Below are positions 3,545 to 30,132 of a stretch of 55,756 nucleotides of DNA, piece after piece (position 1 is the first letter of the stretch; each line of letters starts with the position of its first letter). Under the pieces are notes generated by a model. That model was not told where the DNA came from and made no database searches. It saw nothing but the letters and a program-made list of their open reading frames with translations. The position numbers were made by a program, and so were the translations under genes. The stretch spans positions 1 to 55,756 of the forward strand of contig NZ_JADYUD010000012.1 in the NCBI RefSeq assembly GCF_021531595.1, read 5' to 3'. The stretch comes from Fusobacterium perfoetens (GTDB lineage Bacteria; Fusobacteriota; Fusobacteriia; Fusobacteriales; Fusobacteriaceae).

Positions 3545-3545
3545 C

Positions 3546-3649: not shown

Positions 3650-3741
3650 CTAAATAGTAATTGAAAAAAATATTTTTATTTTTTCGTCTGTTTTTAAAGA
3701 AAAATTTTAAAAAAAATTTATTTTTTTGGAAAGGAATTTTT

Positions 3742-4827: not shown

Positions 4828-4860
4828 AATATTGTTACTTGTATCACATTTAAAAAATTT

Positions 4861-4980: not shown

Positions 4981-4999
4981 TAATTTTTTTCTTAATATT

Positions 5000-10196: not shown

Positions 10197-10293
10197 AGTT
10201 CCTCCTTTAGATTGCTAAAGTTATGTTTGTATAATTTTTCTATTAGACGAAATTTTTTTATAATTTGCTGTTTAAATATAAAATATTTAAATT

Positions 10294-10791: not shown

Positions 10792-10803
10792 AATTCCTCC
10801 TTT

Positions 10804-11361: not shown

Positions 11362-11834
11362 AACTCCCTCTCCTTATAGTTTTCAATTTTTCTTTTCGGA
11401 AGTTTTGCCCCTATATTATTTAAAATCTCCCAAAAGTTTCTATAATCTTTTGAGGATATAATATAGTTTTTATTTTCCATAGTTATTTTTATTCTATAAT
11501 AATAAATCCAAAGTTTTGGTATAAACTCACTTTTTATAAAATCAATTTTTTGTATATCTTTTTTCTGTATTCTTATCTTTCTTCTCAAAATAGGATAAAA
11601 AAATATCAATTCATAATGGGTAATTTTAAGAGTTTTATAAAAAATAAAATCCCTTATAAATATAAATCCATAAAAAACTCCTAATAAAATTGTAAAAACA
11701 GTATAACTATTTTTTGAAAAGGAAACTCCTGTCTTTAGTCCAAAATAAACTATAAAGCAGGAAAATCCTATAAAAAAACTATCTACTATTTTAGATAAAA
11801 TATTTATTTTGCTTTTTATCTTATAGTTTTCCAT
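11358..11834 (-). CDS. Membrane protein with PH-like domain
   Basis: 158 residues. Two hydrophobic segments at about 14-33 and 42-62 are followed by a beta-rich C-terminal part (LKITHYELIFFYP... IRIQKKDIQKIDF... YRIKITMENKNYIISS) with the look of a bacterial PH-like (YdbT/bPH_2) domain. It ends overlapping kptA by four bases. AAGGAGAG precedes its start. Function unknown. Confidence 0.5.
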   Translation of the reverse strand: MENYKIKSKINILSKIVDSFFIGFSCFIVYFGLKTGVSFSKNSYTVFTILLGVFYGFIFIRDFIFYKTLKITHYELIFFYPILRRKIRIQKKDIQKIDFIKSEFIPKLWIYYYRIKITMENKNYIISSKDYRNFWEILNNIGAKLPKRKIENYKEREL

Positions 11835-12022
11835 AAAACTCTCCTTCTCTGCTTTAATACTGATTATTTCTATGTTGGTAGGTCTAATTATTTTTATAAT
11901 TTGGTTACTCTACATAAATCAGTAGAAAATCCTCGGGACAAGGATTGGACACCCTTGTCCTTTCCCTAAAACTTTTTTTACTTTCAGTATATAGCATAAA
12001 AATCTTTCTTCTATTTTATATT
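11835..12022 (-). other. Intergenic gap with a GC-richer hairpin
   Basis: A 188-base break in the tightly packed array. It contains a perfect 8-bp inverted repeat (11936-11943 and 11953-11960, GGACAAGG / CCTTGTCC) in a patch clearly richer in G and C than the surroundings. There is no T-tract directly after the stem on either strand. A 30-codon reading frame across it lacks a ribosome site. It could be an old insertion scar or a small RNA structure. Confidence 0.4.
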
Positions 12023-12340
12023 TTAAAAAAATATTAACCACTCTGAATGACTAAGTATTGCATATATAATTTTTCTTTTAGGCTCTTTATTTTTAAAAAC
12101 TTTAATAACTATATAGAGAATACTTAAAAAATTTATAAGAAGTAAAATTCTAAAAAGTATTAAATCATAAAAACCTAAAAATCCTATAAAAATTTCAGGT
12201 ATTATAACAAAAACATCATAAAGTTTATTAATTATAAAAAGCTTTTTTAAATCTTTATACTTTCTTATAAAAAGAAAATATATAAAAGTATAAAAAAGAA
12301 CTGCAATTAAAAAGATAATATAAATTATTTCCATTTCCAT
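12023..12340 (-). CDS. Small membrane protein (about 3 spans)
   Basis: 105 residues, very hydrophobic, with spans near 5-24, 42-65 and 66-82 separated by short basic loops (RKYKDLKK, KNKEPKRK). Not recognised. It starts 4 bases after the stop of the polytopic protein gene upstream, with GAGG before ATG 12340, so the two are probably cotranslated and may work together in the membrane. Confidence 0.55.
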   Translation of the reverse strand: MEMEIIYIIFLIAVLFYTFIYFLFIRKYKDLKKLFIINKLYDVFVIIPEIFIGFLGFYDLILFRILLLINFLSILYIVIKVFKNKEPKRKIIYAILSHSEWLIFF

Positions 12341-12344
12341 TTTA

Positions 12345-13628
12345 TTATTCCTCTTCTTTTAAATAAAAATCTATTAAATAAAGTGATACTATAAAATTTA
12401 TAAAATATACAAATCCTGTAAAACCTCCATTTAGAATACTAATTATTAGAAAAATATCTTCTCCTACTAAAATTATTAAAACTTTTGGATTTAAAAATTT
12501 TTTAGTTTTTCTAAAACCATCTTTTAATGCTGCCATAAACTTTTTATCAACTAAAACTCCTAATACTTGGAAATTTATAATTAACCCTATAAAATTTATC
12601 ATTACAGCAAGTAAAATATGTAGAACTAAAGGATTAAGAATAAGAATATTCATATCAATAGTATAATTTATAAATATGGCAATTCCAAGGAATAACAAAC
12701 CTATAATATTAACAGCTAAAGTATTAAAAAATTTCTTAAAATTCATTGGCTTAGTCTGAACTTTTCCATTAATTTTAATCAGCATATTTAAAATTAAAAT
12801 TTCTACTATTACTACTAATAATAAGGCTATAATCCCACCTGCTATTATTAAAAATATTATATTTTCTCTCATCATACTGACAGCCATAATATATGTAGAA
12901 ATTATAATCCCTGCTCCAATAGTTAATCCTGCTATGCTTAATATGTATTTTGCATAAAATCCTAAAGATTTTTTTCTTAATCTATAAGTAACCTCATCTT
13001 TTTTATCTGAAATTAGAAAGTTTTTAAAAACCAATATTAAAAAGCATATAAAAGTTACTATAAAGAAAAGAAAAAATATATTTAAAAAATCATAGCAAAC
13101 ATCAGTATTTAGTCCATAATATATTAAAACAGAGATATACAGAGTAAAGATTATTCCATAAAATGGAACTAAAATCCTTGAAGATTTTTCTTTAAAATAT
13201 CTAAACATATCAACTACTGCTATTTTATATTTTAAATTTTTAACAACAGAATACAAAAATCCCATTACAAAAATAGATACTATAATATCAGTAGATACTG
13301 TTTTTAAATTAAAGAAAAGTATTTGATTATTACTTAAAAATTCCTCTCTATCTAAAATTTCTATCTGTTTGTAAAGTAGAAGAGCATTTAAAGAAAAAAT
13401 TCCCAAATAGATTAAAAAATTTATTAATATGTCTTTCCATTTTTTAGTTTTATATTCCTCTATAAAAAGTATTGTTAATATCAGTGGAACAAAAACAGTA
13501 AAAGTTTCTACTTTTATATCAAATCTATTTACTCCAAATACAACAAGCAGATTTAATAAAAATATTATAACTATTCTAAATGGTTTTTTATAAAGTTCTG
13601 ATACACTGATTTTAAATATTTCTGACAT
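12345..13628 (-). CDS. Polytopic membrane protein of unknown function
   Basis: 427 residues with about ten transmembrane segments, no signal peptide and a short acidic C-terminus (FYLKEEE). An N-terminal cytoplasmic stretch SEIFKISVSELYKKPFR precedes the first span, a layout seen in small-molecule or lipid membrane proteins, but no family motif is recognisable. AAAGGAG precedes ATG 13628. It sits between the ankyrin-SUKH gene and the 105-residue membrane protein. If the array is an immunity locus, it could protect the membrane, but that is only inference. Confidence 0.55.
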   Translation of the reverse strand: MSEIFKISVSELYKKPFRIVIIFLLNLLVVFGVNRFDIKVETFTVFVPLILTILFIEEYKTKKWKDILINFLIYLGIFSLNALLLYKQIEILDREEFLSNNQILFFNLKTVSTDIIVSIFVMGFLYSVVKNLKYKIAVVDMFRYFKEKSSRILVPFYGIIFTLYISVLIYYGLNTDVCYDFLNIFFLFFIVTFICFLILVFKNFLISDKKDEVTYRLRKKSLGFYAKYILSIAGLTIGAGIIISTYIMAVSMMRENIIFLIIAGGIIALLLVVIVEILILNMLIKINGKVQTKPMNFKKFFNTLAVNIIGLLFLGIAIFINYTIDMNILILNPLVLHILLAVMINFIGLIINFQVLGVLVDKKFMAALKDGFRKTKKFLNPKVLIILVGEDIFLIISILNGGFTGFVYFINFIVSLYLIDFYLKEEE

Positions 13629-13651
13629 AATATCAGCTCCTTTTAAAGCTC

Positions 13652-14725
13652 TTAATCTAAAAAGCTTCCAACAATCTCTTCACAGTTATTTATAAAATAG
13701 CTCCAATCTCCTATTTTAAAGATTTCTTCATGTTCTGCGTCAAAAATATATATGTTTTTTTCTTTAGGATACCATAAAAAATGAAACCAATAGTTTTCTA
13801 AATCTTTTACTAAAGAAAGATATTTTTTTCTTTTCCAAGTCATTTCAACTGTATCTTCCAATTTCCAAAATTCAATATATTTACTATCAATATTCTCTGA
13901 AAATTCTATTTTTAAATCTCCCTTATTAAAGAACTCTACCATATCTTTTGGCAGTTTATATTTTTTTATTATACTTTTTCTAGCTTCTTCATTGTGAAAA
14001 TCTACTGGCTCTAAACTTTTAATATAATCTATCATCTCTTGATTTTCATTTAAAACTGCTATTGTATATGGTCTTTCTCCAAACTTGTTTTTAATTGTTA
14101 TATCAGCTCCCTTTTCAACGAGCCATTTTACTAATTTAAGAGAATCTGTAGTAGCAGCTACTATTACAGGAGTTGAGTTATCAGTAAAAACTTGGTCATA
14201 TTCGTGATAATTTATATCAGCTCCATAGTCTAAAAACATTTGAGCTAATTTTTGATTTCTATCATAGACAGCTTTTCTTAAACAATTATTTCCATATTTT
14301 TTAACAGTTACTCCATATTTCTCAAAAACATCTATATTTTTAAAATTTTTTCCATAATAAATATCAGAGTAAATTCTTTCGTATTGTTTTTTAGTGAGAT
14401 TTTCTAATGCTCCGTGCTTTATAAATAATTCACACATCTCTGAAGATAAAAAACGAGCTGCACTTGAAATAGGAGTTCCCCAATCGTCTACATCAGCTTT
14501 CACATTTACTCCTTTTTCAATTAACCATAAGATAACTTCTTCTTTAATACATTGTATAGCTATCTCCAAAGGAGTTTCTGTTATAAATTCGCTTAAAGTA
14601 ATTTTTTTATTTATATCCCAGCCGTTTTTTAATTCTTTCTCTAAATTTTCTACATCACTGTTTAAGATATACTCTACAACTTGAGGTACTTTTTCAAAGT
14701 TTCCAAGATAACCAATTTTGTACAT
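13652..14725 (-). CDS. Ankyrin-repeat protein with C-terminal SUKH-like domain
   Basis: 357 residues. Residues about 15-240 hold ankyrin repeats, some degenerate (ETPLEIAIQCIKEEVILWLIEKG, TPVIVAATTDSLKLVKWLVEKGAD). From about 262 the sequence LPKDMVEFFNKGD ... WFHFLWYPKEKNIYIFDAEHEEI resembles the SUKH (SMI1/KNR4) fold used by many immunity proteins. AAGGAGGG precedes ATG 14725. The ankyrin and SUKH types are both named immunity families of polymorphic toxin systems, so a fusion of the two is a strong hint of an immunity role. The SUKH call is by pattern. Confidence 0.6.
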   Translation of the reverse strand: MYKIGYLGNFEKVPQVVEYILNSDVENLEKELKNGWDINKKITLSEFITETPLEIAIQCIKEEVILWLIEKGVNVKADVDDWGTPISSAARFLSSEMCELFIKHGALENLTKKQYERIYSDIYYGKNFKNIDVFEKYGVTVKKYGNNCLRKAVYDRNQKLAQMFLDYGADINYHEYDQVFTDNSTPVIVAATTDSLKLVKWLVEKGADITIKNKFGERPYTIAVLNENQEMIDYIKSLEPVDFHNEEARKSIIKKYKLPKDMVEFFNKGDLKIEFSENIDSKYIEFWKLEDTVEMTWKRKKYLSLVKDLENYWFHFLWYPKEKNIYIFDAEHEEIFKIGDWSYFINNCEEIVGSFLD

Positions 14726-14736
14726 AAGTTCCCTCC

Positions 14737-15231
14737 TTAGTTTTTATAGTTTATAGTTTTTAATAAACTTCCATCAGTTTTATAGAACTTCCATTCTCCA
14801 ACTTTTTTTCCTTCTTTATACATACCTTCTGAAGAAAGGCTTCCGTTCTCATTATAATATTTCCAAAGTCCTATTTCATCTCCTTGAAAAACTTCTCCCT
14901 CTACTTCTAACTGTCCATTTGGATAATATCCTCTATATTTTCCTTTTCTATCCTTTAAATTTTGTTCAAATTTTAAATTTCCATTTTTATAGAAAACTTT
15001 TATATTTTTCATATCTCCATTTTTAAAAGTTGCAATTTGAGATAAATTTCCATCTTCAAAAAACTCTTTAAATTCTCCATTAAGTTTTCCATTTTTAAAA
15101 TTTTCAATAGATTTTACTTGCCCATCTTTATATTTTTTAATAATCTGTCCAGTAAAATTATCTTCTATTTGATAAGCAAAAGAATAAAAACTTACAAGAC
15201 AGAATAGAACTGATAAAATTAACTTTTTCAT
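14737..15231 (-). CDS. YwqK-type MORN-repeat protein, exported
   Basis: 164 residues. A signal peptide (about 1-19, cut after SFYSFA) is followed by repeated MORN_2 units of the form Y-x-D-G-x-x-K-S-x-x-x-F-K-N-G-K-L-N-G, as in the YwqK antitoxin family. It would act in the periplasm or on the cell surface. YwqK-type proteins are described as antitoxins or immunity partners of secreted toxins. It lies 11 bases before the ankyrin-SUKH gene, after the CbrC-like gene. AGAGGT is its ribosome site. Confidence 0.7.
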   Translation of the reverse strand: MKKLILSVLFCLVSFYSFAYQIEDNFTGQIIKKYKDGQVKSIENFKNGKLNGEFKEFFEDGNLSQIATFKNGDMKNIKVFYKNGNLKFEQNLKDRKGKYRGYYPNGQLEVEGEVFQGDEIGLWKYYNENGSLSSEGMYKEGKKVGEWKFYKTDGSLLKTINYKN

Positions 15232-15242
15232 AAATTTTACCT

Positions 15243-16326
<1,084 letters not shown>

Positions 16327-16335
16327 AGTCCACCT

Positions 16336-16860
16336 CTAATCAAAGAAATTTTTTATCTCTTTTCTTTTATCCAAAATTTCAAAAAGTTCGTCCATATCTA
16401 AATCAAACATCTTGCTTTCATCATCTATCTTAGAAAAATAATAATTTACTTTTTCTTCTCCAAACTCTTTTTCTAATTCTTCCCACTCACTTTTTAGCAG
16501 AGGGACAAAAGCCAGAGTATCATTTCCTAAACTTTCCATAAATAATCTTATCTCATATTCAGGTTGGATAATTCTATTTAAAGTTTTGATAGTTGTATCT
16601 CTATCAGAACCCTTTTTATCAGGATAAGATATTTTATATTCTTTTCCTTTCCATTCTATAAATATATCAAATCCCATTTCATTATCAGCATCTTTATTTT
16701 TTCCAAAAAGTTCTCCTGATTGAATTACTCCCTCTATATAATTTATTATATCTTCATCATACTCTCTCCAATCTATCCAAACAAGTCTTTGGCTGTTTTC
16801 CCAAAAATTATCAAAACTTTCTCTATCTTCATTTTTTAAAAATTCTCTCATATACTCCAT
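16336..16860 (-). CDS. Unrecognised acidic cytoplasmic protein
   Basis: 174 residues from ATG 16860, preferred over an upstream TTG because GAGGTGG sits right before it. Notable segments are LVWIDWREYDEDIINYIEG, an RDTTIKTLN motif and GNDTLAFVPL. I do not recognise a family by name; the compact alpha/beta look, acidity and place in the array fit another single-domain immunity-type protein. No signal or membrane segment. Confidence 0.55.
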   Translation of the reverse strand: MEYMREFLKNEDRESFDNFWENSQRLVWIDWREYDEDIINYIEGVIQSGELFGKNKDADNEMGFDIFIEWKGKEYKISYPDKKGSDRDTTIKTLNRIIQPEYEIRLFMESLGNDTLAFVPLLKSEWEELEKEFGEEKVNYYFSKIDDESKMFDLDMDELFEILDKRKEIKNFFD

Positions 16861-16888
16861 AATCCACCTCAAAATTTTTCTAAATCAT

Positions 16889-17752
16889 TTAATAGCATTG
16901 AAGAATTAACCAGACATTATCAAAGTTTTTATTCTTTAAATCTTCTTTTCTGATATTAAAATATATTTTTCCGCTGTCTCCAAAGTATAATCCATAATCT
17001 CCAATTTCCAATTCACTTACCTGCATAAGTAAAATCCACTCTTTTGCATTTTCTTTTATAGATTTTTTAACTTCATCACTGCCATATTTTATAGGAGCAG
17101 AGCCGTAATAGATATTTTTTCCAGCCACTCCCTCACACTCTTCCCAATATTCTCCTTGGATAAGTTCAGGGTGTCCTAAAAGTTTTGTAGTGTCAGCTTT
17201 ATATCCCAATTCCTCTAAATCTTTTTCAAATTCTTTTTCTTTTCTATCCATTTCTTCATCACTATCATCAGGGTCATAATAATCTAAAAAATCAATAGGA
17301 TAGTCATTCATACTTTCAAAATTTATTTTAGATTCAGGAATTATACAATCTTTTTCCATATCTTCAGGAAAATCAGCAGAAACTAAATCTTCTATCTCTC
17401 CGTCATAATAGAAAACTTTTGCACTTCCTCTGTCTTGCGGAGAAAATCCCCAAGTCATAGTAAATAATTCATAGAAAAAATATAACATTCCTTTTTCAGG
17501 TAAAAGGCTTTCTTTATCATATTTATAGACTTCTTCACAATTAATCTGCATTAAAAATGAAAGTGGTCTGTTTTCAACTATTTTTTTATAATCTTCTCCT
17601 TCATAATAAAACCATTGAAAATCTTTTGGTAAATCAGGTTTCCCGCCAATCTTTGAAGTTCCTTTTGGCAGTTTTTCCTTATTTTCATCTTCAGAATAAT
17701 TTATTAAAATTGCATTTCTCTTTGAAATTTCAAGCATATTTTTATCTAGCAT
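16889..17752 (-). CDS. DUF1963 (YwqG-like) protein
   Basis: 287 residues from ATG 17752 (AAAGGAG upstream); the in-frame codon at 17788 lacks a ribosome site and would overlap the previous gene more. DUF1963 marks: SKIGGKPDLPKDFQWF near the start, PLSFLMQINCEEV, a GMLYFFY strand, then LGHPELIQGEYW and the ending LEIGDYGLYFGDSGKIYFNI. The family occurs widely in toxin-immunity neighbourhoods; the biochemical role is unknown. It follows the DUF4253 gene by 14 bases. Confidence 0.85.
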   Translation of the reverse strand: MLDKNMLEISKRNAILINYSEDENKEKLPKGTSKIGGKPDLPKDFQWFYYEGEDYKKIVENRPLSFLMQINCEEVYKYDKESLLPEKGMLYFFYELFTMTWGFSPQDRGSAKVFYYDGEIEDLVSADFPEDMEKDCIIPESKINFESMNDYPIDFLDYYDPDDSDEEMDRKEKEFEKDLEELGYKADTTKLLGHPELIQGEYWEECEGVAGKNIYYGSAPIKYGSDEVKKSIKENAKEWILLMQVSELEIGDYGLYFGDSGKIYFNIRKEDLKNKNFDNVWLILQCY

Positions 17753-17766
17753 ATTAAAACTCCTTT

Positions 17767-18531
17767 CTAATCCCACCAAAAATACCATACACTAGAATTA
17801 ACTAAACTTCCTGCAAGTTGTCCAAGAGTTTCATAACTTTGGTCTACATCAGGGCAATATCCATACATCTCTACTGCTGTTTCCATAGCTGTTTCTTTAT
17901 CAGTAATGATTTTTTCAATTTTATACTCCAATACATCGTGAGTTATTGTAATAGGTACAGCTCCAAATTTTTCATACCAATATCTTGATATTGCCATATG
18001 TTCTGATGTGCTAGGACATTCATTCCAATTTCCCATAGGAAACCAAGCAAATATCTCCCAAGGATTTTTCACAGGAACTTTTACTATAAATAGTTCTTCA
18101 GGTTTATCTGTATCATAATTTAAAAATCCTATTGGAGAATTAAGCTTTTCTTCTTCAGTTTCTTCAAACTCTCCAAGTATCTCTTCACTAAAAGATATCT
18201 CATCATCTTCAGCTTCTGTTTTTCTTATATTTATTAAATCTCTTAAAATATTTTTCCCACCCTCTGAAAAAATAGATGAGATATATCTTTTTCTATAATC
18301 TCTTACATCTTCTATATTAAACTCTTCATCATCTGATATATTAAAAGATAAACTTTCTAAAAGAGTTTCATCAACAGTTACAATCACAGGAAAATATCCT
18401 TTTTCTTTTCCCTCTTTGCTGTATTTTTCAAATTTTTCCATAATTTCTTCATATGTATTATTAGGAAAATACTCATATTCACAATCAAAAAATTCTACAA
18501 ATTCCTTTGCTAAATCACTCATATTTAACAT
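17767..18531 (-). CDS. DUF4253 protein
   Basis: 254 residues. The C-terminal domain is clear DUF4253: PVKNPWEIFAWFPMGNWNEC, then ISRYWYEKFGAVPITITHDV, YGYCPDV and the terminal SVWYFWWD. The N-terminal 100 residues are acidic and variable. Function unknown, cytoplasmic. It begins two bases after the stop of the SUKH/DUF4241 gene, so translation is probably coupled. Confidence 0.85.
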   Translation of the reverse strand: MLNMSDLAKEFVEFFDCEYEYFPNNTYEEIMEKFEKYSKEGKEKGYFPVIVTVDETLLESLSFNISDDEEFNIEDVRDYRKRYISSIFSEGGKNILRDLINIRKTEAEDDEISFSEEILGEFEETEEEKLNSPIGFLNYDTDKPEELFIVKVPVKNPWEIFAWFPMGNWNECPSTSEHMAISRYWYEKFGAVPITITHDVLEYKIEKIITDKETAMETAVEMYGYCPDVDQSYETLGQLAGSLVNSSVWYFWWD

Positions 18532-18533
18532 AA

Positions 18534-20624
18534 TTATTCCTCCTCTTCGTCAGAATATTCTTTTTCAATATCTATAAAGTGAATATAGAATCCACAAAGT
18601 TCTCCTTTTTCATCATATCCAAAATAGCAAGGATAATATCCATCTCCCCAGCCTGACGCAAAAACAGGAATATTTAAGTCAGTATCAGGAATTATAAAAT
18701 TAGCCCAATCTCCACAATCTCTTTGATATTTAGGAAACTTTTTAAAACTTTCTTCTAACAGTTCTTCAAAAATATCATCATAAGGATTGTCTGCATTTCC
18801 CTCTTCTTCAAGTTTTTTCCAATATTTTGAATACTCATCTTGAGATTTTTTATCTGCTACACACCCCATTCCTGCGTCAACACCAAATCCATAGAACTCA
18901 TCTTCTCCTGCTTCGTCCATTTCTTTTTCATTTCCTGTTACAGCTAATTCATAAACAACTGGTTTATTTTTATTAAATTCAACTTTTACACAAGCATATC
19001 TGTTTCCATAATCTTCACTTAGTACTACAGCTATTTTTACAGGAAATTTTCCAACAGGAGTTTTTTGAAGAAATGTTTTTGCTTCTCCAAGTTCTACCAA
19101 AGGATCACAAGCTAGAATCTCTCCTGTAGGAAGATTAACTTCTCCAATATCTAAAGTATCAATTTCCATTTCTCCTATTTTCTTTTCAGTGAAATAGCTC
19201 TCTAAATCTATCTTACATCTAAATTTTTCTTTGTTTCTTTCATACATTTCTTGCCAATTTTTTTCCATATTTTTTTCCCCCTCTGAATAATTTAAAAAAT
19301 CTATTTTCATACCAATTCTATTTCCCAATTCTTTTAATTTTTTTAGATTTTCTTTATTTACAGGGAAAATAGAATAGCTGTCAGAGCTAGTATTAATATT
19401 TCCAATGAAAATATCTTTTTTACTGAATACCTTGTTAAACTCTTCACTCCAAATCTCTATATCATCATCTTCATCAAGGTTTAAGTCTTCAATATTACAA
19501 ATATTTTCAGCTATGCCAACTTTTTTCATTACATCAGAAATCATTTGAAAATCTTCTAGCTCACATTTCCAATCTAGATAGCAAATATATCCATTTTCAC
19601 TTAAAAATAAAATCATAGCCACAATCTTTAGTTCTATTTTTTTAAATTTAATTTTTTCTTTATCAGAAAGATTATTTATTTCATCATTAATATATCTTAA
19701 ATTTATATCGTTTCTTAAATAATTACGAAAATCTTCAAAAATAAGTTCCAATTTTTTTATAATTTTTCTATCATTGGCAGAGAGGATACCAGCTATTTTT
19801 AATAAAATTTTGTCAGCATAAGAAGTTTCATCTTTTTTTACACTTGGTTTTATTAATAGACATTTCTCAAACTTATCATCTTTCATTTGAAAAATATAGA
19901 TTTTATCTCCCTCATAATCATAAATTGAATAAGTAGGAAATTTTAAATTTCTCTCTTTTATTCCAAATGGATTTTTTAGTAGCTCATCTTTTGATATTTT
20001 TTTATCTGATAAAAGAGAATCTATCTCTTCACTATCAAAAGTTAAAAAATAAAATTCACTGCTTTGTAAATTATCTAAGATTTGTAATATTATAAAAGTA
20101 TCAATATCATCTGTTACTTTTTCCCAAGAATATAAATCATCATTGGTTGTCATATATACAGGGGGATTTTCCAAAGCTAAGTCCTCTTTTTTTATACCTG
20201 CATTCCATACACCTTGATTTTCAGTCCAAAATATTAAAAAATTATCTGTTTTCTCTAAAGCCTTTTCTATCTCGTCATTGGAAACTTCATCATCTTCTAA
20301 AGCTTCTCTCTCCCAAGTGTGAGAAAATCCAATCTCATCTAAATTTAAAATACTGCTGAAACAACTGTTTATCTCTAAATCTCCGCATTCGTGATAATAT
20401 CTTCTTAAAACTTTTGGAAAATTGGTTTTTAATCTGATTTCAGTTCTGTTTATCTCTTCCCAGCTTATTTTATAATTATTATTTACCGAATTATTTCCAA
20501 AAACTTTTGTAAAAACAGGACTATTAAAAAAGTTTTCTGAATTTGGAGTAGTAGTTACTCTGTTAATCTTTTTTCTATATAATAGTTTAACTAAATGCTC
20601 TGCTGATAAATTATATCTCTCCAT
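18534..20624 (-). CDS. Multi-domain immunity-type protein: SUKH + DUF4241
   Basis: 696 residues from ATG 20624 (AAAGGTGG upstream; an ATG at 20660 has no site). Residues about 45-190 look like a SUKH domain (ISWEEINRTEIRLKTNFPKV, then FLIFWTENQGVWNAGI and P-P-V-Y). A middle part around 320-450 may be a DUF6630-type domain (weak). Residues about 460-690 are clear DUF4241: the run L-D-I-G-E-V-N-L-P-T-G-E-I-L-A-C-D-P-L, the motif YGFGVDAGMGCVAD and the ending FASGWGDGYYPCYFGYDEKG. Fusion of several such domains in one chain is the hallmark of so-called poly-immunity proteins. Confidence 0.75.
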   Translation of the reverse strand: MERYNLSAEHLVKLLYRKKINRVTTTPNSENFFNSPVFTKVFGNNSVNNNYKISWEEINRTEIRLKTNFPKVLRRYYHECGDLEINSCFSSILNLDEIGFSHTWEREALEDDEVSNDEIEKALEKTDNFLIFWTENQGVWNAGIKKEDLALENPPVYMTTNDDLYSWEKVTDDIDTFIILQILDNLQSSEFYFLTFDSEEIDSLLSDKKISKDELLKNPFGIKERNLKFPTYSIYDYEGDKIYIFQMKDDKFEKCLLIKPSVKKDETSYADKILLKIAGILSANDRKIIKKLELIFEDFRNYLRNDINLRYINDEINNLSDKEKIKFKKIELKIVAMILFLSENGYICYLDWKCELEDFQMISDVMKKVGIAENICNIEDLNLDEDDDIEIWSEEFNKVFSKKDIFIGNINTSSDSYSIFPVNKENLKKLKELGNRIGMKIDFLNYSEGEKNMEKNWQEMYERNKEKFRCKIDLESYFTEKKIGEMEIDTLDIGEVNLPTGEILACDPLVELGEAKTFLQKTPVGKFPVKIAVVLSEDYGNRYACVKVEFNKNKPVVYELAVTGNEKEMDEAGEDEFYGFGVDAGMGCVADKKSQDEYSKYWKKLEEEGNADNPYDDIFEELLEESFKKFPKYQRDCGDWANFIIPDTDLNIPVFASGWGDGYYPCYFGYDEKGELCGFYIHFIDIEKEYSDEEEE

Positions 20625-20652
20625 ATAACCACCTTTTGTAAAATATAAAAAA

Positions 20653-20720
20653 ATGCTCATGACAAAACTATTTCTTGACTTTTCAAAAAATAATTTATGT
20701 CATAAGCACCACCTCTTTTT
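20653..20720 (-). ncRNA. Structured leader, copy A
   Basis: On the minus strand: AAAAAGAGGTGG, then arm TGCTTATGACA, an A/U-rich stem, the tip TTGA-AAAG-TCAA, the closing arm TGTCATGAGCA and a run of T. It is paralogous to 28304-28374: outer arms, tip and purine-rich 5' flank are kept, whereas the middle of the stem differs in sequence but still pairs. It lies between the DUF5713 gene and the 696-residue gene. It could be an attenuator or a processing site inside the operon. A conserved start (ATG ACA, here followed at once by TAA) sits in the 5' arm. Confidence 0.55.
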
Positions 20721-20735
20721 AAGTTTTATCTGATT

Positions 20736-21065
20736 TTACCAATCTCTTTCTCTTATGGCTTCCTCTATATCAATATCTATTTCAAAATAATTAAGAATTT
20801 TTTCAACAGTTACTCCGATACTATCTCTTGCCACTGTTTCAATTTCACTATCATTTTCATCAAACTCTTCTTGTAAATCATTAATTTTTTCTGTCATTTC
20901 ATCAAGTTTTTCTTGAACTTCTTCTAAATCCTCATATTCTTCTTTTTCTAAAAACTCAACTACTTCCACTATACAATCTTTTACTTTATCTACTAAAAAT
21001 CTTGGATAATAATCATCATTATACATATCTTCCAAATAAATAAAATCAGAATTTAATTTTTTCAT
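20736..21065 (-). CDS. DUF5713-like protein
   Basis: 109 residues, all-helical and acidic. The block DDYYPRFLVDKVKDCIVEVVEF, the helix of LDEMTEKINDLQEEFDENDSEI and the ending IEEAIRERDW fit DUF5713. Cytoplasmic, function unknown. It starts 11 bases after the DUF4274 gene and is followed by structured leader copy A. Confidence 0.7.
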   Translation of the reverse strand: MKKLNSDFIYLEDMYNDDYYPRFLVDKVKDCIVEVVEFLEKEEYEDLEEVQEKLDEMTEKINDLQEEFDENDSEIETVARDSIGVTVEKILNYFEIDIDIEEAIRERDW

Positions 21066-21075
21066 AACTTACCTC

Positions 21076-21657
21076 CTATTCTTCATCTAATGCTTCATAA
21101 AGTTTATCTAAAATAGGTATAATATCATCAGGTATTCCCTCTCCCCAATTTGGACTTTCCAAAACTTCTCCCTCTAAAGCTATATACATTTCTTCAGGTA
21201 TCTTAGCTTTCATCTCATCTTTCTCAACTTCATTTGTCCAATCATATCCAGAATACACATCATTTTTAGGATTAAAAGCATATTTTTGATTTTTATAAAA
21301 TCCTGAAAGATAATTTTTTTCAAGAGTTTCTACAATATCATAATCTTCTAAAACCCAATCACCCTCCTCTTCACATTCTTCTCTATTTTTATATTTTTTA
21401 AAAAATTGAGGATTCATATACCAATATAAAAATAAAGCTGTTCCCTTGTCAGTATCAGGCTGTTCTGCTATCCATTTGATAACTTCCTTAGAATTATCAA
21501 AGTTCCAATCTATTGCCAAAAGCTGTCTTTCTTTTGGAGTGTTTTTCTTTAGATAATCTATAATTAAAGCTGTTTCTAACTCATCAAATTCATCTTCATC
21601 AATTTCTACATTTTCCCAGTCAAAATCTTCTCTTAAAATATCTTCTATTTTTAGCAT
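21076..21657 (-). CDS. DUF4274-like protein
   Basis: 193 residues. The segment TPKERQLLAIDWNFDNSKEV ... DTDKGTALFLYWYMNP matches the core DUF4274 pattern (a W-N-x-D strand, then D-x-G-T-A-L-x-x-x-W). The rest is acidic. GGAGGG precedes ATG 21657. It lies between creD-like and DUF5713 genes. Function unknown; the family is typical of immunity neighbourhoods. Confidence 0.65.
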   Translation of the reverse strand: MLKIEDILREDFDWENVEIDEDEFDELETALIIDYLKKNTPKERQLLAIDWNFDNSKEVIKWIAEQPDTDKGTALFLYWYMNPQFFKKYKNREECEEEGDWVLEDYDIVETLEKNYLSGFYKNQKYAFNPKNDVYSGYDWTNEVEKDEMKAKIPEEMYIALEGEVLESPNWGEGIPDDIIPILDKLYEALDEE

Positions 21658-21675
21658 AAAATCCCTCCTAATTTT

Positions 21676-22980
21676 TTATATTTCCTCAGAAGTTTCAATG
21701 TTTCTTGTAATATACATCATTACATAAAGAACTGTCATAAGTAAAAGAGTTCCTGTTATAAGAGCATATTGCTCCATCTTTAAAATAGAATAAAGCACTG
21801 CATATATTCCTGATAAAAATACTAACATTCCAACTCCATATTTACTATTTTTAGTTACAGCTTTTATATATAATGAATTTGGAATTACTACCATCAGGGT
21901 AGCAATTATATAAGCTAAATTAAAACTAAAATATTCAGACATTGAAAGCAGAACTAAATAAAACATTGTAAGAGAAAATCCAACCACTCCATATTGGACA
22001 TAGTGAGTAAATCTTTTGCTTGTTACTTCAAAAATATATACTACAAAAAGACTTAACATTATAAACAGCATACTATATTTTACAGCTCTCATAACTTGTC
22101 TGTAATGAGTTACCCCCTCATATAAATCTACTCCGATTTTTCCCTCTGTAATATCTGAGTAATATCCATCAACAAAATCCTGTTTATAATTTCTTACAAA
22201 AGAAGATACTTCCCATTCTGCCTTAAATCCATTTTCATCAATTACTTTTGTGCTTGGCAAAATTCCATAAAATTTTGGAGCTTTCCAAGTTGATTCTACT
22301 TCAAAATGATTTTCTCTACCAAATGGCAGAACTTCAATGCCACCATTTCCTCTTAAACTAAATTTAATAGAAAAATATATTTTATCTTTTTGTAATAAAT
22401 TTTCATATATTCTTCCAGATACTCCTGTATTTAACGGATATTGTTTAATACCTGTTCCAGATTCTAATTTTATATCTTTTCCCTCTACTTTCATTTCTTC
22501 AACTTTCATTAAAGATTTAGTATCTGTTATTCCTATTCCAATTCCTATATTGTATGGATATATATTATTATTAGGCAATACATTTATTAATTTAGGAAAT
22601 TCTCCCTCTAAAATAATATCTCCATTATATACAGTTGTTTTATAAATCCCTCTTTCTCTTACTTCATCTTTTAAATTAACTTTTACATTTAATTTATCTG
22701 GCAAAATAATATAATCTTTTACAACTGAACTTTCTATTTTTTTCCCAGAATCATTATATTCTATTTTTTTATCACTGTATGGTATTATTAAAAATACTCC
22801 TCCAATAGTTTGTTTTCTTCCCCACTCATTTCCAATTTCTTCTACCATATTATTATATGAATAACCTCTGTCATCTATTATTCTGTGAATAAAAAACATT
22901 GGTATTTGGAGAAGAACTGCTAAAACAAAAAGAAACCCAATCTTTTTTACAAGTGAATTATTATCTTTTAAACTAATCAT
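21676..22980 (-). CDS. creD: CreD-family inner membrane protein
   Basis: 434 residues from ATG 22980 (GAAGGTG upstream; the GTG at 22989 overlaps that site). One N-terminal span, then the CreD signature LLQIPMFFIHRIIDDRGYSY and WGRKQTIGGVFLIIPY, a large beta-rich outside domain, and about five C-terminal spans from residue 300. E. coli CreD is tied to envelope stress and colicin E2 tolerance and is regulated by CreBC. No creBC genes are nearby; here it is placed within the immunity-type array, next to another colicin-tolerance family (CbrC). The molecular role is unknown. Confidence 0.85.
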   Translation of the reverse strand: MISLKDNNSLVKKIGFLFVLAVLLQIPMFFIHRIIDDRGYSYNNMVEEIGNEWGRKQTIGGVFLIIPYSDKKIEYNDSGKKIESSVVKDYIILPDKLNVKVNLKDEVRERGIYKTTVYNGDIILEGEFPKLINVLPNNNIYPYNIGIGIGITDTKSLMKVEEMKVEGKDIKLESGTGIKQYPLNTGVSGRIYENLLQKDKIYFSIKFSLRGNGGIEVLPFGRENHFEVESTWKAPKFYGILPSTKVIDENGFKAEWEVSSFVRNYKQDFVDGYYSDITEGKIGVDLYEGVTHYRQVMRAVKYSMLFIMLSLFVVYIFEVTSKRFTHYVQYGVVGFSLTMFYLVLLSMSEYFSFNLAYIIATLMVVIPNSLYIKAVTKNSKYGVGMLVFLSGIYAVLYSILKMEQYALITGTLLLMTVLYVMMYITRNIETSEEI

Positions 22981-23011
22981 AATTATCACCTTCTGAAATT
23001 TTCGTTAAAAT

Positions 23012-23971
23012 CTATTCAGACATTATAAGCATTTCAAGAATTTCTGTATATCCTTTTTCACTAGCATAATATTCAGGAGATTTTCCATTATTATCTGTTA
23101 TTTTAGTATCAGCACCATGATTTATAAGTTCTAAAACATTATCTTTCTTTCCCCATAAAACTGCTGTTATAAGAGGAGTTTCTCCATTTTTATTTCTGGA
23201 ATTTGGATTTCCACCATTTTCCAATAAAATTTTACAGATATTTTGATTATTTTTTTTAGCACTAAAATGAAGAGGAGATTCACCATTATTTGCAGCTAGG
23301 TTAACATCAGCTTTATTTTCAATTAATAACTCTGCAATATATTGATTTTCATTTTTTACTGCTAAAATAAGAGGAGTTTCTCCACTGTCATTAATATTAT
23401 TTATTTCAGAGGAAGAAGATTTTAAGAGAGCTTTTACCACTTCACTTTGATTATTATAACAAGCTTGATGTAAAGGTGTATTTCCAAAATTATCTTTTTC
23501 CCCTGCTGACAAAAAATTTACAAGTTCTTTTAATCCATTTGTAGTTGCATAATCTATTGGAAGATGTCCTTCATTATCTTTTAAAGTTGTATCAGCTCCA
23601 AGTTCTATACATTTAAAAGCAGCTTCACTTTTATTCTGCATAATAGCATATATAATTGGAGTTCTTCCTTTAAAGTCAAGAGCATTTATATCTCCACCGT
23701 TTTTTACCAACAATTCTAAAATATCTTTATTTCCTTTCACAGCTCCTTGATGAAGAGGGGTTATACTGTTATTGTCTCCTAAATTAACATCAGCTCCAGC
23801 TTCTATTAAAAGTTTTACAATTTCTCTGTCTCCCTCCCCACAGCTGTAAAAAAGACCTGTTCTTCCCATATCATCTCTTTCATTTATATCTATTTTTTTT
23901 GAGTTCAGAAATACTTTTATAATAGATTTCTGTCTGTTTTTGCAGGCTGTTATAAATGAATTTGCTCCCAT
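23012..23971 (-). CDS. Ankyrin-repeat protein (about 9 repeats)
   Basis: 319 residues made almost wholly of canonical ankyrin repeats (G-x-T-P-L-H-x-A-x-x-x-x), beginning near residue 5 and running to the end, with fewer decayed units than the neighbouring ankyrin genes. No signal peptide or other domain. AGGAGG precedes ATG 23971, four bases after the stop of the next ankyrin gene upstream. Expected to bind a protein partner; in polymorphic toxin loci ankyrin proteins serve as immunity proteins. Confidence 0.85.
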   Translation of the reverse strand: MGANSFITACKNRQKSIIKVFLNSKKIDINERDDMGRTGLFYSCGEGDREIVKLLIEAGADVNLGDNNSITPLHQGAVKGNKDILELLVKNGGDINALDFKGRTPIIYAIMQNKSEAAFKCIELGADTTLKDNEGHLPIDYATTNGLKELVNFLSAGEKDNFGNTPLHQACYNNQSEVVKALLKSSSSEINNINDSGETPLILAVKNENQYIAELLIENKADVNLAANNGESPLHFSAKKNNQNICKILLENGGNPNSRNKNGETPLITAVLWGKKDNVLELINHGADTKITDNNGKSPEYYASEKGYTEILEMLIMSE

Positions 23972-23975
23972 AAAT

Positions 23976-25460
23976 CTAACCTCCTATATTTATAAGATAC
24001 TGTGCTAATTTTTCTTTTTTCATTTTTAAAGCTGTATCTAAAGCAGTTTCTCCTTTGTTATTTGTAATAGAAGTGTCTACATTATAATTTTCTAAAATTT
24101 CCAAAGCTTCTATTCCCTCTTCCTCTCTCCAAATATTAGAAAGTAACATAAGAGGTGTTTCTCCGTCTATATTTTTACTGTTAGGATCAGCTCCATTCTC
24201 CATTAAAAGCTCTGTCATATCTGCTATTTTATCCCCGCCGTTTTTAAATAATTTATGAAGAGGGGTATTTCCGTTTTTATCTCCTATATTTACATCAGCT
24301 CCGCTGTCTATTAATTTTTCAAAAATAATAAACTCTGCTTTTTCTTCTTCAATCCAATTAAATCTATTTGAAATACTGCATAATAAATTAACTGGTGTAT
24401 TGTATTCATCATCAACATAACTGTTTAAAAAATTTTTATCTTTCAGATAATATTTAGTTATCTCTTGAAAATTTTCTTTTGTCTTTTTACCTTTAATATT
24501 TATTCCTGTATTTATCATAGTCTTAGCAAAGTAATAAAAACTGTTTAGTCCGTTTTCACCATCTCTTTCACAAACATCAGCACCATTTTCTATAAGAATT
24601 TTTACAATATCTTTGTGCAGATGTTTTGAAGCTATGGCAAGAGGGGAGAGTTTTTTAAGCTCTCCCATATTTCCCTCATAAATTTCATTTAAATCACTTT
24701 TTCTTAATATATATTCTTTTACTATATCCTCATATCCAAACCAGCAGGCTTCATGCAGACCAATTCCAAAAGTCTTGTCATCTTCATCTGCATTTTTTAA
24801 TAATGAGCAGGCTCTTTTATTTCTTGTTTCAAAAGCTAAATCATAAGCAAGTTTTTCTATTGCTGTTTTTGTATCAATATCTATACCGGAATTTAAAATT
24901 GCTTTTATAGTTCTTAAATATGGCTCTTCTTGTTTTTTATATTCTTCCTCATTTTTTAAATAGTAATCTATTCTATGCAGTGAAGCACAGGCAATATGCA
25001 AAACATTCCAGCCATTTGATAAAATTGGTTTATCATATTTTATTCCCAGCTCATTCATTATTTCAAAAATTGTGTATTTTTGATAATCGGCACATTTATG
25101 ATAAAATATCTCTCCTGATTCATCTCTTTTATTTATATTTCCGCTATTTTCTGTAAGAATTTTTATTATCTTTTTTATATCTTTATATTTTTCTTCAGGA
25201 TTTTTTATATCATTCAGCATAAAAAACGGTGTCTGTCCATATTTGTTAGTTTTAAAAATTTTTGTCTTTCCTTGAAGTTTTGCTGTCATGAAAAAATATT
25301 CAAAAATTTCACTGTCAGCAAATTTTGCAGTAATATGAAAAACTGTATTTCCATAAGAATCTTCATCATCTGGCTGATATTTTTCATACTCCTTTTTTCT
25401 TTCTTCAAAAGATAAGTTTTTTCTATAAAGTTCCTGCAGAGAATATACATCAATTTCCAT
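23976..25460 (-). CDS. Ankyrin-repeat protein, long and partly degenerate
   Basis: 494 residues. Ankyrin units are recognisable at several places (YGNTVFHITAKFADSEIFEYF, LSPLAIASKHLHKDIVKILIENGAD, NGNTPLHKLFKNGG, NGADPNSKNIDGETPLMLLSN), with loose helical regions between. No signal peptide. Its ATG shares bases with the stop of the DUF1266 gene (TAATG), so translation is coupled. The pair of adjacent ankyrin genes probably arose by duplication. Confidence 0.8.
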   Translation of the reverse strand: MEIDVYSLQELYRKNLSFEERKKEYEKYQPDDEDSYGNTVFHITAKFADSEIFEYFFMTAKLQGKTKIFKTNKYGQTPFFMLNDIKNPEEKYKDIKKIIKILTENSGNINKRDESGEIFYHKCADYQKYTIFEIMNELGIKYDKPILSNGWNVLHIACASLHRIDYYLKNEEEYKKQEEPYLRTIKAILNSGIDIDTKTAIEKLAYDLAFETRNKRACSLLKNADEDDKTFGIGLHEACWFGYEDIVKEYILRKSDLNEIYEGNMGELKKLSPLAIASKHLHKDIVKILIENGADVCERDGENGLNSFYYFAKTMINTGINIKGKKTKENFQEITKYYLKDKNFLNSYVDDEYNTPVNLLCSISNRFNWIEEEKAEFIIFEKLIDSGADVNIGDKNGNTPLHKLFKNGGDKIADMTELLMENGADPNSKNIDGETPLMLLSNIWREEEGIEALEILENYNVDTSITNNKGETALDTALKMKKEKLAQYLINIGG

Positions 25461-26659
25461 TATAGCACCTCTTCAATCCAAGGATTTCTTAACCACTCTC
25501 CATCTTCTTCCTCACCTGTTTCAGTTAAAAGACCTTCCAAGGCTTCTACTGTTTCGTAATAACGGCTGTATGTTTCAGACGGGTCTTTTCTGTAAGTCCA
25601 GAACAATCCTCCTACAATATACGATATTCCAAATTCTTTCCAAGAATTGAAGGTACCAATCATAACACCTGCTATTTTATCTAGTATTTCCCAAGCTTCC
25701 TCTTCACTTATATAATTCATAAAATATGACCAGCGAACTATTGCGGCAGCTCTTCCATAATCCCAGCCAAGCATAATATTTTCTGGAAGCTTGTCTTTGA
25801 AATATTTTGTAAACTCAAATCCATTTTTTACAATTTCAATTTCTTCTTCGTCCATATCTTCATTTATAAGTTCATCAACAGTATCTGCATTTGCATAACC
25901 TAAATATTCATCTGTATGCCCTTCATTTAATAACCATGCTATAGTATTATAGACATCATCTTTATTTTCTATTCCCCAAAATTCAGTAAGAATATAATTT
26001 ATTCTATCATGGAAAAATTCATTGTGTTCTTCCACATCTAAAGTATCATTATCATGCCCGTTAATGTAAGATAAAATTCCTGAAAGCATAATTTCAAATT
26101 TTTCTATATATTCGTCACCATTTTTTACTTTTATTTTATTTCCTTCAGGTAATGAATCATACATATTTTGGATTAAAGTTCCTACATCCTCCAAAGAAAC
26201 ATCTTCTTCTAACCCATTCCACATATTCATCTGGTTTTCATAATAGTTCTGCATATCTTCCGGTGTTAATTTTGTAAAATCTTCTATTCCTGTCATAGCT
26301 TGAAATTGTTTCATCTGCTCGGATATAATATCCTGAAGATTTGTATTTCCAGATGAAAACATTTCATTCATGGCATTTGTTACTTCTGCAGCTTGGGCTT
26401 CTATTGCATTAGTTCCATTTTTAACAGCTTCCTCTTTGGCTTCCTGCATTTTTTTCATTATTGCAGCTGTATCTACTCCGGGAACTGCATTTTGAATTGC
26501 TTCTATATCTATGTTATTTTCTAAATCAGCCATAGAATTTTCAAGAGCCTGTTTCATTAAATCTCCCATATTTTCAAAATTTTCTCCGTAAATATCTTTC
26601 ATATGCTGTTTCATTAATTTTTCCATTTCCTCTTGAGCTTTTTTTACTTCATTAGACAT
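25460..26659 (-). CDS. DUF1266-domain protein
   Basis: 399 residues. The N-terminal half is a long helical, Met/Glu/Gln-rich region. The C-terminal half is DUF1266: LGWDYGRAAAIVRWSYFMNY, ISEEEAWEILDKIA and FNSWKEFGISYIVGGLFW. The family includes E. coli YbeR/YbeU and has no known activity. AGGAGG precedes ATG 26659. It is coupled to the downstream ankyrin gene. Confidence 0.75.
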   Translation of the reverse strand: MSNEVKKAQEEMEKLMKQHMKDIYGENFENMGDLMKQALENSMADLENNIDIEAIQNAVPGVDTAAIMKKMQEAKEEAVKNGTNAIEAQAAEVTNAMNEMFSSGNTNLQDIISEQMKQFQAMTGIEDFTKLTPEDMQNYYENQMNMWNGLEEDVSLEDVGTLIQNMYDSLPEGNKIKVKNGDEYIEKFEIMLSGILSYINGHDNDTLDVEEHNEFFHDRINYILTEFWGIENKDDVYNTIAWLLNEGHTDEYLGYANADTVDELINEDMDEEEIEIVKNGFEFTKYFKDKLPENIMLGWDYGRAAAIVRWSYFMNYISEEEAWEILDKIAGVMIGTFNSWKEFGISYIVGGLFWTYRKDPSETYSRYYETVEALEGLLTETGEEEDGEWLRNPWIEEVL

Positions 26660-26676
26660 AATTTTTACCTCCTAAA

Positions 26677-26859
26677 TTAAAAATTTTTAAAATAGTTATA
26701 AAGGCAGATAAGTCCTAAGCCTATTACTACTGATATAAAAATAATCGTTGTAAATTTTAAATTATATTTTAGCTGTTTAAAAATAAAAATTGTACAGCCG
26801 ATTATCATATAAATAACTATTGCTCCACATATAAGAGCCACTATATCAAAATTTTTCAT
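26677..26859 (-). CDS. Small two-span membrane protein
   Basis: 60 residues with two hydrophobic helices (about 6-28 and 36-56) around a short basic loop (KQLKYNLKF). The ribosome site is weak (AAGGAAATAGTG). It fills the gap between the zinc-ribbon gene and the DUF1266 gene with 17- and 21-base spacing, which is the best evidence for it being real. Not recognised. Confidence 0.5.
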   Translation of the reverse strand: MKNFDIVALICGAIVIYMIIGCTIFIFKQLKYNLKFTTIIFISVVIGLGLICLYNYFKNF

Positions 26860-26880
26860 ATTATCACTATTTCCTTAGTA

Positions 26881-27984
26881 TTAAGTCTGCTGGTGAAACA
26901 TAGTAATTATATTACAATCAGGACATATTTCTATATACAAAGTTCCCTCTGCACTATCCATTATAGTGTCCCAATGAATTTGAGCAAGATACTTCATTTT
27001 CTTTCCACACTCTGGACACTCTCTGTATTCTCCGTCCTGCACCCAGTTGGCAAATCCGCCTATTGTACTTACATCATCTGTAAATGTACCATAAAATAAT
27101 GGTTTTTCTTTGTCAGAAACAACAAATTTATTATTTACCATTTCATCTATTATATCTTCTCTAAAATAATTTTCTTCTTCTCCGTCATATTCTAAAATCT
27201 CATTAGTTCCATCAAGATTAAATTTATTTGAAATTCCCTCACTTAAAGTTACACAGTTAGGACAACAGCTTGCAGTGATAATGCCATCTAATCCTAAAAA
27301 TGAAAATCTTTCATCTCTTCCGTCTATCACAAGAATATCTATTATCTCTCCACCACAGTGTGGACATTTTTCCCCTCTTTTTCTGGCGATAAAAGTTCCA
27401 TTTTCATCTTTTTTCTCTCCCTTTTCAAAAGAGAAACACTTATCATAATTAAGTTTTATATAATTATTATCACTGTCAAAAGTCCAACCACCCTCTTCAG
27501 CATAAATGTCTGAATCTACATAAAGTTTTTTTCTCCAAGGTCTAGGATTTATTTTAAGCTCATATAAAGTGTTTTGTGATTTTCTATCTCCTATCATTGC
27601 AAGACATTGTAAAAGCAAACCACCTTCATTGGCAGACTTTACATTCATAATTTTTTCTATTAATCTATCCCTTACCTCATCACTTGCTTTATAGTATAAC
27701 TCACTTGGATAGAAAATCTCTCTTTCACAAGCTGTTTTAGAAAATTCTTCTACATATATCCCCTTTGTCATTAAATCTTGAAAAATTTCATATTCATCAG
27801 TTTTATAAAAATTATCTTCTGTTGAAACTTTTAATTTTTCTATCACTTGATTTATTTTTTCTTTTATCTCTTTATCAGTCCAATTATCAACTTCTTCTCT
27901 ATGTTTCTTTGCTCTGCACTTCCAACATAAACCTTCAAATCCTAAAGGTGTTCCACATTCTGGGCATTTATATTTTAAACTCAT
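26881..27984 (-). CDS. Zinc-ribbon protein with DUF1963-like end
   Basis: 367 residues. There are zinc-ribbon cysteine pairs at the start (CPEC 8-11, CWKC 20-23), the middle (CPHCGGEI, CCPNC) and the end (CPECGKKMKYLAQIHWD, then CPDC). The last 60 residues, with IGGFANWVQDGEY and a final QQT, resemble the C-terminus of cysteine-containing DUF1963-type proteins. A HEAT-like helical part may lie between the ribbons. AAGGAGG precedes ATG 27984. It is the second gene of the array; function unknown. Confidence 0.6.
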   Translation of the reverse strand: MSLKYKCPECGTPLGFEGLCWKCRAKKHREEVDNWTDKEIKEKINQVIEKLKVSTEDNFYKTDEYEIFQDLMTKGIYVEEFSKTACEREIFYPSELYYKASDEVRDRLIEKIMNVKSANEGGLLLQCLAMIGDRKSQNTLYELKINPRPWRKKLYVDSDIYAEEGGWTFDSDNNYIKLNYDKCFSFEKGEKKDENGTFIARKRGEKCPHCGGEIIDILVIDGRDERFSFLGLDGIITASCCPNCVTLSEGISNKFNLDGTNEILEYDGEEENYFREDIIDEMVNNKFVVSDKEKPLFYGTFTDDVSTIGGFANWVQDGEYRECPECGKKMKYLAQIHWDTIMDSAEGTLYIEICPDCNIITMFHQQT

Positions 27985-27994
27985 ACTGACCTCC

Positions 27995-28267
27995 TTATTT
28001 TTTCAGCCATAAAGATAAAGAAAAAATTATAATAATTGCTCCAAATAATCCTGTAAAAAATCTAAATCCCCCTTCTCCAAAGATTTCATAGACAGTTCTC
28101 ATAAATCTTTTTGATCCTGTAGGATTACAAATCCAGTTCCATTTAAAAATAGCTCCAAAGAAAAGCAGTCCTCCTCCTATTAATCCTACAAGATATGGGT
28201 ATCTTCTTAAATAAGGATCTATCTTTTCCATAAACTTTATATATAAATCACTAATTGGATTATTCAT
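27995..28267 (-). CDS. Small membrane protein, first gene of the array
   Basis: 90 residues from ATG 28267 (AAAGGAG upstream). Two hydrophobic segments (about 27-45 and 66-86) and a basic ending. The same frame stays open upstream through the structured leader to an ATG at 28363, but the stretch in between is leader palindrome, so the internal start with its own site is preferred. Not recognised. Confidence 0.55.
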   Translation of the reverse strand: MNNPISDLYIKFMEKIDPYLRRYPYLVGLIGGGLLFFGAIFKWNWICNPTGSKRFMRTVYEIFGEGGFRFFTGLFGAIIIIFSLSLWLKK

Positions 28268-28303
28268 AGCTCTTCTCCTTTCTTTGAAATTTTTAAATAA
28301 AAA

Positions 28304-28374
28304 ATGCTCATGACAAAAATGTTTTTTGACTTTTTCAAAAAACATTTTTGTCATAAGCATCACCTCTTTGTTGT
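28304..28374 (-). ncRNA. Structured leader, copy B
   Basis: Minus-strand RNA: AAAGAGGTG, then a stem of about 26 bp closed by TGCTTATGACA / TGTCATGAGCA, including 19 perfectly paired bases (28311-28329 with 28335-28353), a purine loop, and a T-run after the stem. It lies in the 5' leader of the whole array, about 40 bases downstream of the promoter at 28413-28441. An AUG at the start of the stem is preceded by GAGG at good spacing and is in frame with the first gene, so a leader peptide could be made. Confidence 0.6.
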
Positions 28375-28412
28375 TAGGGTATAAAGCTTTGTAATCTATT
28401 TAACTTAGTATA

Positions 28413-28441
28413 AGTATACTATAAAAAAATTCTTTTAACAA
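28413..28441 (-). promoter_or_regulatory. Promoter of the immunity-type array
   Basis: TTGTTA (28436-28441) and TATACT (28413-28418) with a 17-bp spacer on the minus strand. A second TATACT lies at 28407-28412. It drives structured leader copy B and the genes below it. Confidence 0.65.
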
Positions 28442-30098: not shown

Positions 30099-30132
30099 AT
30101 AATTTATAAGAAATAGGAAGAGAGAAGATAAA

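Follow-up and report, generated by a model that had tools for sequence, protein, structure and literature searches.

How is a large bank of immunity genes kept under control, and why does one such bank in Fusobacterium perfoetens carry the same hairpin twice? To our knowledge, cellular control of the expression of large immunity-gene banks has been little explored. The window, meaning the whole 55,756-nt stretch of DNA analysed, holds an immunity-type array (Table 1) whose genes belong to several unrelated families (Imm17, SUKH-like, ankyrin, MORN and several DUFs), as in a polyimmunity locus; no toxin domains were found among the array proteins scanned. A KptA/Tpt1 RNA 2'-phosphotransferase gene (10804-11361, minus strand) also lies in the array and might repair RNA damage inflicted by toxins. 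The two hairpins, copy A (20653-20715) and copy B (28304-28366), are both on the minus strand, and each has a 27-pair stem, a U-run and, on the 5' side, the flank GAGGUG. On balance, though by no means firmly, we read both as cis-acting transcription attenuators, that is, intrinsic terminators opened by ribosomes.

Table 1. Positions in the window of the two hairpin copies and of the array genes around them
Feature	Position	Strand	Basis or remark
Copy A hairpin	20653..20709	-	Folding and covariance search; upstream ORF GUG-CUU-AUG-ACA-UAA in the 5' arm
Copy A Shine-Dalgarno-like flank GAGGTG, conserved	20710..20715	-	Modelled duplex with the canonical anti-SD, -12.6 kcal/mol
Copy A U-run (terminator tail)	20647..20653	-	Sequence
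Copy B hairpin, 27-pair stem	28304..28360	-	Folding and covariance search; upstream ORF start AUG-CUU-AUG-ACA in the 5' arm
Copy B Shine-Dalgarno-like flank GAGGTG, conserved	28361..28366	-	Modelled duplex with the canonical anti-SD, -13.2 kcal/mol
Copy B U-run (terminator tail)	28299..28304	-	Terminator scan: scored terminator-like
Copy B promoter-like sequence, TTGTTA, 17 nt, TATACT	28413..28441	-	Consensus match only; overlaps box AGTATACTTATACTAAG
Immunity-type gene array	7563..28267	-	Imm17, DUF1266, ankyrin, CreD, DUF4274, DUF5713, fusion gene, DUF4253, DUF1963, DUF2262, UPF0167, MORN, KptA, TPR
Imm17-family gene, first of the array, directly 3' of copy B	27995..28267	-	PF15562, E 2.3e-9
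DUF5713 gene, ending just upstream of copy A	20736..21065	-	Domain search
SUKH-like + DUF6630 + DUF4241 fusion gene, directly after copy A	18534..20660 (708 aa); 18534..20624 (696 aa from ATG 20624)	-	Domain search

The two copies align with 87% identity over 71 nt and share GAGGTG(G/A)TGCTTATGACA ... TGTCATGAGCATTTTTT, with a mid-stem that differs in sequence. The pattern GAGGTGNTGCTTATGACA matches the window at exactly these two places even when three mismatches are allowed, against a chance expectation of 0.09. As RNA, A folds at -30.1 kcal/mol (z-score -7.4) and B at -37.2 kcal/mol (z-score -9.6), energies equalled by none of 200 shuffles; the stem of copy A carries a bulged U. Folding of the plus strand is weaker, partly because its lower stem has an A-C mismatch in place of a U-G pair. 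A stable stem-loop followed at once by a U-run is the anatomy of an intrinsic (Rho-independent) terminator, and both copies have it; a terminator scan scored copy B as terminator-like and did not list copy A despite the same anatomy. The TTGA...TCAA tip, A-rich loop, T-run and GAGG site named in a first-pass annotation of this DNA are all present as described. That annotation also placed one copy at the opening of the array and the other before the fusion gene, which is right once B is taken as the opener and A as the internal copy, lying between the DUF5713 gene and the fusion gene. An AUG does stand at the stem foot with GAGG in both copies, whereas the stop said to follow it at once in copy A comes one codon (ACA) later.

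Homology searches extend the pair to a family. A first covariance model built on six copies and a second built on 24 matches were run against genomes at genus, family and phylum level (98 genomes in the phylum set), and 24 convincing copies emerged in nine of the 98 genomes, confined to two genera of the same family. The window's own genome holds a third copy elsewhere, and relatives hold more: accepted copies fall in the window's genus (G000, three; G001, two; G002, four; G003, one; G005, four) and in a second genus (G029, four; G070, one; G073, one; G078, four). Weak matches of 34-37 bits in three other genera (G068, G009 and G038) were excluded from the 24. A match at G000:C19 (39.9 bits) was rejected as an ordinary terminator with a weak flank and no gene directly behind it; the 24 sequences of model R2 and alignment A3 include this match and lack copy B, and the MAFFT alignment A6 omits it. 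The first-pass annotation had proposed a search of relatives and a lookup in Rfam. The former yielded these homologues in nine genomes, and in Rfam 15 no family scored above its gathering cut-off, the matches at a permissive threshold being mostly eukaryotic microRNA models that fit any long hairpin. The element is thus a previously uncatalogued RNA family. A pattern scan of a named genome collection gave no match, though the pattern fits A and B and near relatives are perhaps missing from that collection; a protein scan of the same collection gave only two distant matches.

Selection on RNA structure across this family is strongly supported. In alignment A3, which was fitted to the model, 95.6% of cells pair, compared with 52-63% when the partner is slid by one to three columns. 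Two-sided changes occur at 13 of 30 pairs, in 38 cells versus 12.2 in shuffles, and no shuffle out of 500 does as well; these covariation counts carry no phylogeny model. Alignment A3 leans towards the covariance model, and the test was therefore rerun on a sequence-only MAFFT alignment, where 7 of 18 predicted pairs still show two-sided changes. Sense folding beats antisense folding in all 25 matches scored, by a mean of 11.6 kcal/mol, and this suggests that selection acts on the RNA, not on the DNA. Covariation among homologues was the test on which the first-pass annotation had staked its idea of compensatory change, and both alignments show it clearly. Copies A and B alone give less, with one clean two-sided pair (A-U versus G-C) and mostly one-sided differences, so the idea holds through the 24-copy family rather than through the pair from which it was drawn.

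The same stems raise another possibility, namely that the element serves RNA processing or stability, either as a long duplex for RNase III to cut or as a 5' hairpin whose 30S site protects the mRNA against decay from that end. Predicted stems of about 25-33 pairs exceed most terminators in the same DNA and are long enough for RNase III; being AU-rich and longer than a terminator needs, they would also suit that enzyme, and a ribosome-bound 5' end can stabilise mRNA, as established in Firmicutes. Neither role requires an invariant U-run directly after the stem, however, and we hold this explanation to be improbable.

Placement ties the element to genes. All 24 copies are sense to their operon, 17 of them ahead of its first gene and seven at junctions inside arrays. 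A promoter score of at least 7 is reached by 15 of the 17 operon-head copies versus none of the seven junction copies, the score being a plain consensus match of a kind common in this AT-rich DNA; at operon heads, the predicted -10 usually lies 23-55 nt upstream of the element. Behind the copies stand Imm17-headed arrays, a 156-157-aa membrane protein with MORN genes (A4), DUF2207 proteins, MORN operons, and the DUF4241 fusion gene or a 232-241-aa gene. Immunity-type genes, MORN-repeat genes or associated membrane genes are present in nearly all element operons; copy G078c, by contrast, precedes a DUF6847 gene. Genes of 606-608 aa behind two copies had been taken for two-partner secretion transporters; this was wrong, as they encode DUF2207 membrane proteins. 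Among 61 genomes of the family, all nine element carriers have an A4 or Imm17 gene and no element-less genome has A4, an association whose Fisher values are not independent evidence because the genomes are related. In G070, A4 and Imm17 genes share one apparently fused operon with an HTH regulator gene at its head, and the element is absent there.

Further observations concern the promoters and flanks. Box AGTATACTTATACTAAG (window 28404-28420, minus strand) is nearly palindromic and overlaps the -10; it recurs at the third copy of this genome, and its exact matches in this genome are only at these two element promoters. Judged by sequence, it is a possible candidate operator. Related HTH regulator genes adjoin arrays in three relatives (L056:7112-7609, L060:6842-7339 and L067:2465-3010); two of them lie upstream of the element, and the third heads an apparently fused operon that lacks it. 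In G001 (L008, about 3395-4729), the end of a CreD gene appears fused, directly ahead of the hairpin, to the end of a DUF5713 gene, which looks like a deletion of the genes between them.

These positions bear on whether the element could be a mobile or recombinogenic palindrome, a MITE- or REP-like repeat or a site of cassette exchange, lying in intergenic gaps by chance. The flanking gene content of junction copies differs between genomes, and recombination breakpoints therefore do fall near the element. Yet a repeat of this kind would be expected to scatter in both orientations, and what is observed is a set of sense copies immediately before genes of a few operon types, with only three in the window's own genome. 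The covariation preserves RNA rather than DNA pairing, and searches of plasmid and phage collections for the element gave no match. A mobile palindrome, one of the three roles first proposed for A and B, is thus disfavoured and has very little probability left. The other test set for the pair, that copies should not lie at random relative to genes, comes out in the element's favour, with copies at operon heads and array junctions and all of them sense.

The most constant unpaired positions of the family are the GAGGTG flank, at 1.4-2.0 bits per position, and the U-run, which is near invariant. Beside the stems of 34 ordinary strong hairpin-plus-T-run sites in the same DNA, a 5-base Shine-Dalgarno core never occurs and a 4-base core occurs twice; the home-made scan behind this comparison recognised only nine element copies and is usable for the flank, not for abundance. 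Modelled with the canonical 16S rRNA end, GAGGUGAU pairs as strongly as the ribosome-binding sites of the array's own genes. The canonical anti-SD is assumed for the host, whose own 16S 3' end was not found in the draft assembly, probably because the rRNA is missing from the draft. A modelled ribosome footprint on the well-spaced AUG weakens the hairpins from -30/-35 to -4/-3 kcal/mol. No antiterminator fold is shared or consistent among the copies, and the nascent leaders fold no better than shuffles (z near 0 in 17 of 17).

One might then regard the element as a fixed partial terminator, which would set a constant low expression and a step-down at the internal junction while its ribosome site had no regulatory role. 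Its terminator anatomy, its placement and the lack of an RNA antiterminator all agree with this, but GAGGUG is conserved beside the stem as it is not in ordinary terminators of the same DNA, and we think the explanation unlikely.

An ORF starts with AUG or GUG at the stem foot in all copies, and most have a second, in-frame AUG well spaced from GAGG, which is replaced by AUA in two copies and missing in two more. In 13 of the 24 copies the stop falls at the tip of the hairpin, and in most others within an arm; in copy B it lies beyond the hairpin, and the ORF reads in frame into the Imm17 gene. The peptide ranges from four residues up to such an in-frame run into the next gene, with an 8-residue MLMTLIVF-like form in about half of the copies that may reflect the stem sequence alone. 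A conserved leader peptide, with regulatory codons or stalling, was considered and rejected, as both sequence and length vary among copies. If translation matters, therefore, it probably does so through initiation or occupancy and not through the peptide.

Attenuation is the simplest reading because the terminator anatomy lies directly behind promoters. Since the leaders share no antiterminator, the hairpin would need some other opener, for which the conserved ribosome site beside the stem is an obvious choice. The family, the selection on structure, the terminator anatomy, the conserved Shine-Dalgarno, the placement and the lack of a shared antiterminator are shown computationally; from them we infer termination in the cell, its control by the ribosome and any inducing signal. 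The intrinsic terminator, a long stem with a U-run, would act a short way behind the promoter of an immunity-type operon or, for copy A, at an array-internal junction. A strong Shine-Dalgarno abuts the stem, and the start codon of the very short upstream ORF lies in its 5' arm. If no ribosome has loaded before polymerase completes the hairpin, the terminator would fold and the downstream operon would stay untranscribed; a 30S subunit or ribosome initiating at the site would cover most of the 5' arm, so that the hairpin would stay open and polymerase could read on. A signal would change the loading or dwell time of the ribosome, and one candidate is stalling by toxins or drugs that damage translation. 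A bolder form, in which the leader family couples interbacterial immunity arrays to the state of translation, toxin-stalled ribosomes on the leader ORF holding the terminator open and thereby switching on the entire bank of antidote genes, seems to us a long shot. Among the three roles first suggested for A and B, attenuation through a translated tiny leader fits best, given the conserved Shine-Dalgarno and U-run and the lack of an RNA antiterminator; its leader peptide, by contrast, is not conserved. Points against an attenuator are this variable peptide with its inconstant stop, a well-spaced AUG that some copies lack, AU-rich stems longer than a terminator needs, the gene behind G078c, the fused G070 operon that has no copy at its head, an anti-SD that is assumed, and promoter matches of a kind frequent in AT-rich DNA.

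The opening factor could also be a protein acting in trans, a specialised NusG/LoaP-like or other antiterminator that binds the hairpin and for which GAGGUG is part of a recognition site rather than a ribosome site. In favour of such a factor are a leader that recurs over several operons, as a regulon needs, and over very long arrays, a lower stem that is partly conserved in sequence as well as paired, and the HTH regulator genes that adjoin some arrays. Many lower-stem positions covary, however, which fits pairing better than base-specific recognition, and the most constant unpaired part matches the canonical anti-SD. We give this explanation a small share of the probability and prefer opening by the ribosome.

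The element resembles known leader-ORF attenuators without belonging to them. In Bacillus subtilis vmlR, translation of a leader ORF decides termination through separate anti-antiterminator, antiterminator and terminator hairpins, and stalling antibiotics induce the gene (PMC9226507). Like vmlR, the element has ahead of the structural gene a promoter, a Shine-Dalgarno, a very short upstream ORF and an intrinsic terminator, in that order, so that a short ORF with a ribosome-binding site lies between promoter-like sequence and terminator. In contrast to vmlR, the start of its ORF lies within the 5' arm of the terminator itself, no antiterminator fold is seen, and immunity-type arrays lie downstream. 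We class it as a variant rather than a member because a separate antiterminator and conserved regulatory codons are absent. In pneumococcal patAB, a stem-loop of the leader acts as a terminator and reduces expression, and in one mutant a restored pair restores the terminator (PMC4319486). Both systems have a terminator-type stem-loop upstream of genes, whereas patAB, in the available part of that account, is a single locus with different genes and a predicted antiterminator, and no Shine-Dalgarno at the stem foot is described.

On the gene side, Zhang et al. (2012; PMC3482391) describe, for polymorphic toxin systems, polyimmunity loci in several phyla with families such as Imm17, SUKH and ankyrin. 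The arrays studied here share with them a series of unrelated immunity genes; in the accessible portion of that paper, gene content is described, no leader RNA appears and the word "terminator" is absent. Orphan immunity gene arrays are likewise found in the acquired interbacterial defence arrays of Bacteroidales, a different lineage, to judge from the part of that literature at hand. A full-text literature search on attenuation of polymorphic-toxin immunity genes returned nothing relevant, a weak indication, as most subscription papers lay outside the search.

If the attenuator reading is true, a small RNA switch gates whole immunity arrays by a simple design, a ribosome site at the terminator's own foot and no antiterminator. 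The element would then be a marker for finding immunity operons and would open the question of whether translation stress opens immunity arrays.

The window also holds unrelated features. On its minus strand, 31458-31743 matches the 5' ureB small RNA of Rfam above the cut-off, antisense within a 571-residue ORF (31305-33020), and may reflect only similarity to urease coding sequence. A different hairpin repeat occurs at 30121-30263 (plus strand) and 4851-4992 (minus strand), the copies being 82-86% identical, with a third at G000:C3:33454-33595 (95%). In the copy at 30121, the 3' arm holds AAGGGAGG, followed by U7 and AUG, and by its sequence this hairpin could hide a ribosome site.
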